A DNA stretch of 39,852 nt from Campylobacteraceae bacterium (GTDB taxonomy: Bacteria; Campylobacterota; Campylobacteria; Campylobacterales; Campylobacteraceae), in contig JAIROK010000013.1 of assembly GCA_031257555.1 (NCBI GenBank), forward strand, positions 1 to 39,852, written 5' to 3'. The notes below the pieces were generated by a model. That model searched no databases. It saw only the letters and a list, made by a program, of their open reading frames with translations, and was not told the origin of the DNA. A program made the translations under genes and the position numbers. Positions 5,943 through 36,625 of the stretch are shown here, piece after piece; position 1 is the first letter of the stretch; every line of letters begins with the position of its first letter.

Positions 5943-6566
5943 ATGATAAAACTTGGAGCATTTGATTTTGATTCAACGCTTATGGATGGCGAAACTATCG
6001 ATATTTTAGCTGATAGTTATGGTGTAGGAGATGAAGTTTCGAAGATAACAGCTTCAGCTATGAGAGGCGAGATAGATTTTTTCGAAGCATTAAATAAAAG
6101 AGTTGCTCTTCTAAAAGGTATGAGCGAGAAAAAAGTGATAGACATATGTCAAAATTTAATTTACATGAATGGCGCCAAAGAATTAATCAAAGAGCTTAAA
6201 TCACGCGGTGTTACCGTTGTAGTTTTTAGCGGTGGATTTAGATATGCTACAAGTTATGCTAAAAATATTTTGGGATTTGACGCTGATTTTTCAAATATTT
6301 TGCATGCTAAAGACAATGTCCTTACAGGGCTTGTTGGTGGAGATATGATGTTTGGTTTTTCAAAAGGCGATATGCTGGGGCGAATACAAAATCTGCTTAA
6401 TATATCAAAAGATGAGACTATGGCTGTTGGAGATGGAGCTAATGATTTATCCATGTTTGCATTGGCAAATACAAAAGTGGCATTTTGTGCTAAAGAGATT
6501 TTAAAAGAAAGTGCTGACATAATTATAAATGAAAAAAATTTAGCAAATATTTTGACACATATTTGA
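5943..6566 (+). CDS. serB: Phosphoserine phosphatase SerB
   Basis: HAD-superfamily phosphatase that performs the last step of serine synthesis. The 207-residue protein has motif I DFDSTLMDGE (nucleophile D8, acid/base D10), motif II SGG near 96-98, and motif III/IV GDGANDLSMF near 157-166. The N-terminal ACT domains of longer SerB proteins are absent, as in other Campylobacterota. It starts at ATG 5943 and is followed 19 bp later by the tal-pilT fusion on the same strand. Confidence 0.9.
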   Translation: MIKLGAFDFDSTLMDGETIDILADSYGVGDEVSKITASAMRGEIDFFEALNKRVALLKGMSEKKVIDICQNLIYMNGAKELIKELKSRGVTVVVFSGGFRYATSYAKNILGFDADFSNILHAKDNVLTGLVGGDMMFGFSKGDMLGRIQNLLNISKDETMAVGDGANDLSMFALANTKVAFCAKEILKESADIIINEKNLANILTHI

Positions 6567-6585
6567 TAGCAAAAGGTAAATAAAA

Positions 6586-9033
6586 ATGGCAATCGGTTTA
6601 AATAATTTTTCTGTTTGGTGCGATTTTTTAGAGAGAGATTTTTTACAAAATCAATTCAGTAATTTGGTGGATTCGGGAATTGTAAGCGGTATCACAAGTA
6701 ATCCTGTTATTTTTAAAAATGCTATTTTGAGCTCAAAAGCTTACAATGAAGATAAGATAAAAAGTTCGGAATTTTCTCCCGAAGAGCGATATGAGTTAAT
6801 GGCTATTGATGATATCAGAAGCGCTGCCAAAACCCTTTTGCAAACACATACGGCAAATGAACTTGATGGATTTGTCAGCATAGAGGTTAATCCTTTATTT
6901 GCAAATAATGCAGCCAAAATGACAGAAGAGGCAAAAAGACTTTTTAAAACTATCAATATGCCAAATGTAATGATGAAAATTCCTGCTACTGTAGATGGAT
7001 ATGAGACGATAAAAGATTTGATATCAGAAGGTATAAACGTAAATGCTACCCTTGTTTTTTCTCCTCTGCAAGCTGGCAAATGTCTACAAGCTATAGAAAA
7101 TGGTTTTTATATATTTCAAAGACGAAACCCAAAAAAGCTCTTTCCAAAAGCCGTAATTAGTGTTTTTGTGAGCAGATTTGATAGAAAATTGGATCCTATT
7201 TTGGAAGCCAACGGCATGGAGAAGATGAAGTTTGGTATCATGAATGCCTCTTATATATATCAGCTTGTAAAAGAGCAGAAGATTTCAAGCGTAAGATGTC
7301 TTTTTGCAAGTACGGGAGTTAGTGATGCTGGCGTTAAGCCATCTTACTATATCACAAAACTTCTTTATCAAAACGCTATCAATACAGCTCCTTTAAAAGC
7401 CATAGAAAGCTTTATGGAGAGTTTGGACACAGATGAGAGAGCTTGTCCCAGCAAGCAGAGCATACAGGAGTATTTTGAAGAGGTTAAATCCAAAGGTGTA
7501 AACATTAACAATGTTTATATGGAGCTTTTAAATGATGGATTGGAGCAATTTAAACAGGCATTTAATGAGATGATAGATAGTTTGAAGATTTCTAAAAATA
7601 CAACAGATGGGATAAAGCAAAGCATAAAGACAGATGGAAATCAAGAGCTTGAAAATACGGCTGTAAAACAACAAATTACAGCAAAAGACCAAGTAGAGAA
7701 TAAAATCATATCAAAAGAGGTCAAAAGCGTAGATAGAGCCAACGTAAAACCGGAAAGAAATATTCAATCCAACGAGAAATATGCAAAAAATATACTCAAA
7801 GAGAAAGTCGCCGAAGCTATAGGCATCATCGAAGCTGATATATATGCCATAACATTTTTAAAAAAATGTCTTGAGAATTTGATAAGCTACAATGGGAGCG
7901 ATTTGCATATCAAATCTGATGCCATTGTCAAAGGACGTGTGAATGGTGAGATTATAACGGTAGATAATGATATTTTTACAAAAGATGATGTAGAAATTTT
8001 AGCCCAAGAACTTTTACAGGATAGATACGAAGAGTTCACAAAAAAGAAAAATATAGATTTTATATATAAGCTCAATAAAAATTATAGATTTCGCGTAAAT
8101 ATGTTTTATCAAACAGACGGTATATCCGCAGCATTTCGTGTAATTCCTCTAAGCATTCCGACGCTGGAATCTTTGGGGCTTCCAGAGGTCATCAAAGATT
8201 TTGCTTCAAAAAGACGCGGTTTGATACTCGTTACGGGACCTACTGGCTGCGGAAAAAGTACAACTCTTGCTACTATCATAAATATTATAAATCAAACCAG
8301 TCAAAAACATGTCATAACTATCGAAGATCCTATAGAGTTCATCTACAAAGATGAACAAAGTATTATAAATCAACGCTCTGTTGGGCAAGATGCCGTAAGT
8401 TTTTCGGATGCCTTGATATCATCTTTAAGAGAAGATCCGGATGTAATTATGGTAGGGGAGATGAGAGATATTGAGACTATCAGGACTGCTATAAGGGCAG
8501 CAGAAACAGGACATTTGGTGCTTTCTACTTTACATACTTTGGATGCTAAAGAGACGATAGGGCGTATCATAAGCATGTTTCAAGGTGGCGAACAGGTTCA
8601 AATCAGACAATCTCTCTCATCTGTCCTTGAAGCGGTCGTCTCTCAAAGATTGGTAAGAAGAAAGGGCAGCAAAGGAAGAGTTGCTGCTGTTGAAATTTTA
8701 ATAAAAAATGCGAGAATAGAAGCCATGATATCTCAAGGCAGAGAGAGTGAGATAAAAGATTCTATAGAAAAAGACAGAGATGTATATCGAAGTCAAAGCT
8801 TCAACCAAGCACTGCTTGATTTGTACACTAAGGGTGCTATAAATTATCATGAAGCGCTGTATGCGGCAACATCACCTGCGGATTTGAAAATATTGCTTGA
8901 TAATTATGATGTCGAAAAAAGTAAAAAACCAGAGATTGCTAAAAACACTTATGCAAACAAAAATAGTTTGGAGCAAAATTTAAATATAGTTATAGATATG
9001 AATGATATAGAAATTTTGGATTTAAAAAGATAA
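6586..9033 (+). CDS. Transaldolase-PilT fusion protein
   Basis: One uninterrupted 815-codon frame holds two complete enzymes. Residues 1 to about 335 are a transaldolase: GITSNPVIFKN near the start, the Schiff-base lysine K131 in MMKIPATVDG, and ASTGVSDAGVKPSYY. This is the pentose-phosphate enzyme that moves a dihydroxyacetone unit. Residues about 336-410 are a polar, low-complexity linker. Residues about 410-765 are a type IV pilus retraction ATPase: GSDLHIKSD (437-445), Walker A GPTGCGKST (551-559), Asp box ITIEDPIEF, Walker B DPDVIMVGEMRD (617-628) and His box AAETGHLVLSTLHT (638-651). A roughly 50-residue tail follows. No in-frame ATG exists between codons 329 and 506, so an independent PilT start is hard to find. 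Tal and PilT are normally separate proteins. Ribosome site AAAGG precedes ATG 6586. Confidence 0.92.
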   Translation: MAIGLNNFSVWCDFLERDFLQNQFSNLVDSGIVSGITSNPVIFKNAILSSKAYNEDKIKSSEFSPEERYELMAIDDIRSAAKTLLQTHTANELDGFVSIEVNPLFANNAAKMTEEAKRLFKTINMPNVMMKIPATVDGYETIKDLISEGINVNATLVFSPLQAGKCLQAIENGFYIFQRRNPKKLFPKAVISVFVSRFDRKLDPILEANGMEKMKFGIMNASYIYQLVKEQKISSVRCLFASTGVSDAGVKPSYYITKLLYQNAINTAPLKAIESFMESLDTDERACPSKQSIQEYFEEVKSKGVNINNVYMELLNDGLEQFKQAFNEMIDSLKISKNTTDGIKQSIKTDGNQELENTAVKQQITAKDQVENKIISKEVKSVDRANVKPERNIQSNEKYAKNILKEKVAEAIGIIEADIYAITFLKKCLENLISYNGSDLHIKSDAIVKGRVNGEIITVDNDIFTKDDVEILAQELLQDRYEEFTKKKNIDFIYKLNKNYRFRVNMFYQTDGISAAFRVIPLSIPTLESLGLPEVIKDFASKRRGLILVTGPTGCGKSTTLATIINIINQTSQKHVITIEDPIEFIYKDEQSIINQRSVGQDAVSFSDALISSLREDPDVIMVGEMRDIETIRTAIRAAETGHLVLSTLHTLDAKETIGRIISMFQGGEQVQIRQSLSSVLEAVVSQRLVRRKGSKGRVAAVEILIKNARIEAMISQGRESEIKDSIEKDRDVYRSQSFNQALLDLYTKGAINYHEALYAATSPADLKILLDNYDVEKSKKPEIAKNTYANKNSLEQNLNIVIDMNDIEILDLKR

Positions 9034-9638: not shown

Positions 9639-10208
9639 ATGTTTCTTTTTGTAGGACTTGGTAACCCTACTGAAAAGTATGCTTATACAAGACATAATAT
9701 AGGTTTCATGGTTATCGACTGTTTGGTCGGTAACCATGATGCATTTTCTATTTCAAAAGCCCAATTTTGCGGCGAATTATATAAAAGTTCCCAAAATCTG
9801 TTTTTAAAACCGCTCACATATATGAATAACTCCGGTAAAAGCGTAAAAGCTGTTTTTGATTTTTATAAACCTGATGAAATTGTTGTTATCCACGATGATA
9901 CAGCCATACCATTTGGAAGCATACGCATAAAAAGAGGAGGCTCAAGCGGCGGACATAACGGATTAAAGTCTATAGATTCATATTTGGGGAATGATTATAT
10001 AAGAATTCGTATAGGTATCGGCGCACCTGTAAATTTACAAAATATGGCAGATTTTGTTTTGGATAATTTTTCAAAAGAAGAATTTGCATGTGTAAAAAAA
10101 CTCATAAATTACAGTACAAAAATTGTTGAAGATTTACCCAATAAAGACTTAAATGCTATAATATCTTGTTATACATCGAAAAAAGGGATCTGTAGCGATA
10201 ATGATTAA
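9639..10208 (+). CDS. pth: Peptidyl-tRNA hydrolase
   Basis: Releases tRNA from peptidyl-tRNAs that drop off the ribosome. The 189-residue protein has the family start VGLGNPTEKYAYTRHNIGF with N9 and catalytic H19, the KPLTYMNNSG motif, and HDDTAIPFG followed by GGSSGGHNGLKS. It lies 5 bp after rplY and overlaps the next gene by 8 bases. No clear ribosome site precedes it, which fits translational coupling to rplY. Confidence 0.95.
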   Translation: MFLFVGLGNPTEKYAYTRHNIGFMVIDCLVGNHDAFSISKAQFCGELYKSSQNLFLKPLTYMNNSGKSVKAVFDFYKPDEIVVIHDDTAIPFGSIRIKRGGSSGGHNGLKSIDSYLGNDYIRIRIGIGAPVNLQNMADFVLDNFSKEEFACVKKLINYSTKIVEDLPNKDLNAIISCYTSKKGICSDND

Positions 10209-35704: not shown

Positions 35705-36625
35705 GTGTTTGGAAAGGAACAACAAAGAGAAATAAATCGCAAATTGAAAATATTAAAAGAGGCAGAAAAGTGCAATAATATCTCCTTCGCATGCAGGCAT
35801 TATGGTATCTCAAGAGTTACTTTTTATAGATGGCAAAGACACTACAGGCAGTGCGGGGACAAGGGTTTGATAAACTCAAAGCCTTGTCCCCAAAATATTA
35901 AAATACGAGTTTGTGCCGAAACAGAAAAGCAAATTATATTTTTAAGAAAAACTTTTCTTTTCGGTCCCATGAGCATATCTTGGTATCTTGATAAATATTT
36001 TAACATTAAAGTGTCTCAAAACGGCGTACGCGGAGTGCTGTTGAGGCACAACATGAACATACTGCCTAAATATATAACCAGACACAGTCAAAGAGTATTT
36101 AGACGATATGAAAAAGAAACTCCCGGACATCATGTACAAGTTGATGTTAAATTTCTCTTTTTCCAAAATAAATACAATGAAAAAATTAAAAAGTTTTAAT
36201 ACACAGCCATTGATGATTGTACGCGGATTAGAGCACTTAAAATATATGATAAGCATACACAGAATAACGCTATTGATTTCATAAATTATGTTGTTGAAAA
36301 ATTTCCTTTTCGCATTAATGTTATTCGCACTGATAGCGGGCATGAGTTTCAAACAAAATTTGATTTATATGTTCAGGACTTAGGAATGGAACATGTTTAT
36401 ATTAAACCAGGCACGCCTCGCTTAAATGGTAAAGTAGAACGTTCACATTTAACGGATAAAAGAGAGTTTTATCAACTTTTGGAGTATAAAAACGATGTTG
36501 ATATTGAAGAAAAACTTAAAGAGTGGGAAAATTTCTATAACTTTTACAGACCTCACAGAAGCCTGCAAGGTAAGACCCCTTATCAAGCGCTAATGGATAA
36601 AGTTGCTTTAATAAAATATGTGTAA
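35705..36625 (+). pseudogene. IS transposase, interrupted by an in-frame TAA
   Basis: GTG 35705 with an AAGGAG site starts a frame of 307 codons including one stop. The N-terminal helix-turn-helix has SFACRHYGISRVTFYRWQRHY. The DDE catalytic residues are all present: D147 in HHVQVDVKF, D in VIRTDSGHEF and E in LNGKVERSHL. TAA at 36197-36199 falls in KIKKF-stop-YTAIDDCTR, where relatives have Gln (CAA to TAA is one change), and the frame resumes directly, so no frameshift is involved. The C-terminal FYRPHRSLQGKTPYQAL is intact. The element is probably inactive unless the stop is read through. Confidence 0.88.

Follow-up and report, generated by a model that had tools for sequence, protein, structure and literature searches.

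Among PilT-family ATPases, PilT proteins share a conserved AIRNLIRE motif that is missing from PilU, a paralogue that depends on PilT and may form its own hexamer beneath it (PMC6762196). Transaldolase, for its part, is known in a two-enzyme protein, the bifunctional transaldolase/phosphoglucose isomerase PRK09533, in which an N-terminal transaldolase of the family treated here is followed by a second enzyme. Both domain families and the fusion of operon neighbours are already known; the pairing of a transaldolase with a pilus motor is unreported in the literature that we searched, a limited open-access library in which no Tal-PilT fusion was found. Here we describe such a pairing in a stretch of 39,852 nucleotides from a Campylobacteraceae bacterium (hereafter the window), a contig of a metagenome-assembled genome (MAG) of 1.48 Mb in 136 contigs, 63% complete. 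We searched 14 genomes of the window's genus, 153 of its family and a sample of 299 from its order. The named counterparts are MAGs that bear the title 'Campylobacteraceae bacterium' and host-coded isolate names; judging from this naming, they appear to come from termite guts, like the MAGs reported in PMC9137090. Gene structure, conservation, selection and motifs were read directly from the sequences.

Two complete domains in one frame

The tal-pilT fusion gene (6586..9033, + strand) starts with ATG and translates without a stop into 815 residues, and 13 other genomes hold an orthologue that is likewise a single frame. A ribosome-binding-like site, AAAAGG (6571..6576, +), precedes it, and most fusion orthologues have an AAAGG-type site before their start as well. 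Upstream lies a serB-like phosphatase gene (5943..6566, +), in the operon order seen in relatives such as L046, and downstream rplY/ctc, encoding 50S ribosomal protein L25 (9097..9633, +; same order in L046), followed by the peptidyl-tRNA hydrolase gene pth (9639..10208, +). Elsewhere in the window, a short and apparently truncated ORF (35705-36199) resembles the N-terminal part of a helix-turn-helix transposase. In the window protein, hmmscan placed TAL_FSA at residues 10-332 (E 2e-70) and T2SSE at residues 422-702 (6e-52). Translation, Pfam and NCBIfam all confirm the sequence-only reading of this gene as a single 815-codon frame holding a complete transaldolase and a complete PilT-family ATPase, and the positions that it gave for Lys131, Walker A (551-559), Walker B (617-628) and the His box (638-651) are all correct.

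Profile matches, alignment to PDB entries and invariant residues delimit a transaldolase domain of the tal_mycobact/PRK03903 type (residues 1-333; 6586..7584, +), and the PilT-family ATPase domain spans residues 424-772 (7855..8901, +). The linker between these boundaries (residues 334-423; 7585..7854, +) is predicted to be disordered from 349 to 416; a joining polar linker had indeed been described, but its length is about 90 codons rather than 75. The absence of any ATG between codons 329 and 506 had also been observed, correctly. In-frame GTG and TTG are likewise absent between codons 333 and 432, which leaves the PilT half of the window protein without a start that it could use, and an internal start, which we considered, is ruled out. 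Some relatives have in-frame ATGs with purine-rich sequence upstream, none of them conserved genus-wide. The alignment further delimits a variable C-terminal tail (8902..9030, +), which ends in a conserved hydrophobic-x-LK peptide, DIEILDLKR (9004-9030), with similar ends in most separate tal-linked PilTs; this kind of peptide may be a docking motif.

The transaldolase half scores 400.7 bits against NCBIfam PRK03903 (cut-off 344; residues 6-333), and Foldseek matched it to Neisseria transaldolase. Residues D13, N39, E100, K131, N153 and T155, which we take to be the transaldolase active-site positions, align with PDB transaldolases and are invariant in 14 fusions, among them the Schiff-base lysine Lys131 (6976..6978, +; aligned to 3clm/7bbw). 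This invariance makes it very probable that the half is an active enzyme. The residue aligned with Cys38 of the Neisseria-type NOS redox switch is Ser34 in the window. A single transaldolase gene was detected per genus genome, and it is the fused one (in G001 the gene is split by contig ends). Transketolase exceeded its cut-off in 9 of the 14 genus genomes, the other assemblies being incomplete.

The PilT half belongs to the PilT/PilU family TIGR01420 (412.8 bits, cut-off 319.1, residues 425-766), and its Foldseek matches are PilT4, PilT2 and PilU. Translation and alignment show the motifs of the family: Walker A, GPTGCGKST (551-559; 8236..8262, +), an Asp box, Walker B, DPDVIMVGEMRD (617-628; 8434..8469, +), with the catalytic Glu625, and the His box. 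Residues K557, E580, D581, E625, R627, H643 and H650 are invariant across the fusions. A conventional PilT is encoded as a separate gene on another contig of the same genome (L069:9071-10141). Its score against Geobacter PilT4 is 368 bits, and the best PDB PilT for the fused protein, that of Aquifex, reaches 293 bits. The C-terminal motif region reads NPAISNLIRED in the conventional PilT and KNARIEAMISQG in the fused PilT; at the place of AIRNLIRE the separate paralogue has AISNLIRE, and the fusion NARIEAMI. In the tree, which is subject to long-branch caveats, the fused PilTs and the tal-linked ones make up a clade apart, and characterised PilTs group with the canonical paralogue, not with the fused PilT. 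By sequence, then, the fused PilT is a PilT-family paralogue and not the genome's conventional PilT. To call it a retraction ATPase, as had been done, is too strong for a protein without an AIRNLIRE-type motif in a genome where the conventional PilT is separate.

Three weak matches aside, and uncorrected for phylogeny, a tal-linked PilT was present in 194 of the 299 order genomes, 185 of these 194 also having a conventional PilT; a conventional PilT alone was found in 32 of the 299. This order-wide linkage to tal and the near-exclusive co-occurrence with conventional PilT make an accessory, PilU-like motor the most likely identity of the fused PilT, a reading that rests on the missing AIRNLIRE motif together with that co-occurrence. 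The search for further pilus genes that the sequence-only reading had advised proved fruitful: the window's genome carries an MSHA-type type IV pilus cluster (L073 8765-17566) with PilM/N/O-like, PilB-like and PilC-like proteins, an AAA ATPase and an MshL secretin over its cut-off. MshL is present in 13 of the 14 genus genomes, and the genus thus shows MSHA-type type IV pilus genes along with a conventional PilT encoded separately. A T2SS cluster lies at L074 of the window's genome.

Distribution and origin of the fusion

The fusion architecture occupies one open frame in 13 of the 14 species of the window's genus (802-906 codons stop to stop); in the fourteenth genome the locus is cut by a contig end. 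A second genus supplies a fusion of 770 residues (G023, L068). The proteins of the 13 genus members and G023 measure 770-869 residues, and orthologues are 59-81% identical to the window protein. The two arrangements that had been proposed for searching were both found, the fused one in these genomes (n=14) and separate tal and pilT neighbours elsewhere. No stop codon occurs in any of the 14 fusion linkers (52-142 codons), and shuffled linkers yield a stop-free frame by chance with a probability of at most 0.008 each. A stop or frameshift missed in assembly or sequencing might come to mind for a contig of a 63%-complete MAG. However, 14 separately assembled genomes share one architecture with differing linkers; because they carry an orthologous fusion, assembly error is refuted, and we regard the chance of such an artefact as negligible. 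Further candidates for independent fusions (G328, G073, G056 and others), for which long open frames had been reported, were rejected, as the opened loci consist of two ORFs split by a stop.

Outside the two fusion genera, tal lies directly upstream of pilT as a separate gene at every family and order locus that was opened, with the full order serB-tal-pilT-rplY at L046. In the closest relatives with separate genes (L046, L051, L052 and L053), pilT is in the frame of tal with exactly one stop codon between them, so that changing this one codon would be enough to fuse the two. The genes are also in frame at L063, apart from a further stop-to-stop gap a few codons long, and in several relatives the tal stop overlaps the pilT start (TGATG, TAATG). 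In the maximum-likelihood tree, the fused PilTs form one clade (support 100/100) within the tal-linked PilT clade, with G023 at its base; their grouping in one clade indicates one fusion event. The earlier proposal that adjacent genes fused by loss of a stop thus finds strong support in the one-stop, in-frame relatives and the single fused clade; we place this single event in an ancestor shared by the window's genus and a sister genus.

Other tal-linked PilTs have been altered in their own ways. Five genomes of genus g4 (G106, G144, G138, G118 and G114, at L067, L070, L071, L115 and L118, respectively) were examined as possible fusions for their PilT frames of ~760-797 codons and rejected, tal being separate in all five. 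Their tal-linked PilT bears an N-terminal extension of its own of ~390 residues, which in the three that were read (G106, G138 and G144) is acidic, of low complexity and unlike transaldolase. Together with the tal fusion, these extensions indicate that N-terminal additions were gained at least twice in this PilT lineage. Elsewhere (L092, G222; L094, G308), the tal-linked pilT is broken by an in-frame stop in one complete genome and divided into two pieces ~0.8 kb apart in another; these interruptions suggest that the gene is dispensable in some strains. In one assembly (L066, G024) its last third contains a frameshift.

Linker evolution and possible functions of the fusion

Pairwise dN/dS was 0.03-0.07 for the tal part, 0.03-0.06 for the pilT part and 0.09-0.46 for the linker, which argues that the linker is translated and constrained, less tightly in the window's branch (0.33-0.46 in the window's species, where it is disordered and fast-evolving). 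By this measure both halves are under strong purifying selection, with their catalytic residues kept. AlphaFold2, run on single chains, predicted both domains of the window protein with high confidence, with a pLDDT below 50 for residues 349-416 and a pTM of 0.48, from which no fixed arrangement of the two halves is predicted. In nine species (G002, G003, G004 and G007-G012) the linker is rich in E, K, R and A, of ER/K type, and opposite charges recur at i+3/i+4 more than chance would give (z 3.3-4.4), a pattern known from single alpha-helices; the linker of L042 was modelled by AlphaFold2 as one helix of 81 residues, from 337 to 417. No such charge pattern was found in the linkers of the window, G005, G006, G013 and G023. 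That the linker became a helix in the nine species suggests that the physical distance between the halves is important there.

The explanation that we favour, and consider probable, is a stop-loss fusion that yields a working, tethered transaldolase and an accessory, PilU-like hexameric motor. In Campylobacterales, loss of one stop codon from the ancestral operon serB-tal-pilT2-rplY created a genuine two-enzyme protein, in which the transaldolase would work normally while tethered and the PilT half would assemble into a hexamer, serving as an accessory retraction motor beside the conventional PilT. Such a hexamer would bear as many as six transaldolases, held on spacers that would keep the motor ring unhindered and that differ between species, being either flexible or helical. 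The join would fix a 1:1 ratio and co-localise the halves, each doing its own job. Ring formation, the two activities and the accessory role in the pilus are steps that we infer; the enzyme-decorated hexamer first suggested for this gene is plausible given that both halves are intact. The halves could also be separated by proteolysis in the linker.

The fusion may also be neutral, or constructive-neutral: a chance stop loss leaving independent halves without functional coupling, and a linker that only prevents interference. It occurred once in the order, a single stop-codon mutation is enough, the linker of the window's species is disordered and evolves fast, and the PilT of g4 relatives tolerates an unrelated N-terminal extension of ~390 residues. 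We nevertheless hold this account to be rather unlikely, since none of 13 species has reverted, at a dS close to 1 or higher; the charge-patterned helix conserved in nine species also speaks against it, but weakly, because a helix serves mere spacing too. The neutral fusion with a flexible linker that the sequence-only reading had offered agrees with the linker of the window protein, but the conserved helical, charge-patterned linker of these nine sister species weakens it. A metabolically gated motor, in which sugar-phosphate binding or turnover by the transaldolase alters how active the PilT ring is or where it sits, would draw on the order-wide adjacency of tal and pilT2, the genus-wide fusion, the status of the fused gene as sole transaldolase and the nine species with helical linkers. 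If true, it would tie pilus dynamics to pentose-phosphate flux. However, the window's linker is disordered with no defined domain contact in the AlphaFold2 model, flexible linkers are poor signal transmitters, and the open-access library searched held no supporting literature. We find such gating very improbable, and equally so the version in which an accessory type IV pilus ATPase responds directly to the state of the sole transaldolase, the helix of the nine species serving as a rigid lever or spacer. The data can be explained without a regulatory role of the transaldolase.

Comparison with described systems

It is unusual to find the only transaldolase of a cell, an enzyme of central carbon metabolism, stably joined to the ATPase of a pilus motor, and the history of this pairing amounts to a natural experiment: genes separate across the order, one fusion, and linkers that then diverged, some being flexible and others a single helix. 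The fusion further points to an uncharacterised PilT paralogue that adjoins tal throughout the order. The separate tal (PRK03903/tal_mycobact) and tal-linked PilT of other Campylobacterales are the same genes, in the same serB-tal-pilT-rplY order and with the same catalytic residues as the fusion, but they make two polypeptides, with a stop between them and often an overlapping stop and start or a 9-nt in-frame gap. In PRK09533 the transaldolase is partnered by a metabolic enzyme from a connected pathway, whereas here the partner is a motor ATPase, and the window protein scores 210.8 bits against that family, below the cut-off of 712. Thermus PilT2 (5fl3), whose tree position is uncertain on a long branch, has the same altered C-terminal motif region as the fused PilT and is a high structural match (TM 0.87 to target), without a fusion. 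PilU, a structural match (9n32), is like the fused PilT a PilT-family paralogue that lacks AIRNLIRE and occurs together with a conventional PilT. Unlike PilU, the fused PilT is not adjacent to pilT, carries a transaldolase and is no closer to PilU by phmmer score (235 bits to 9n32, against 242 for the conventional PilT and 293 for its own match to Aquifex PilT).
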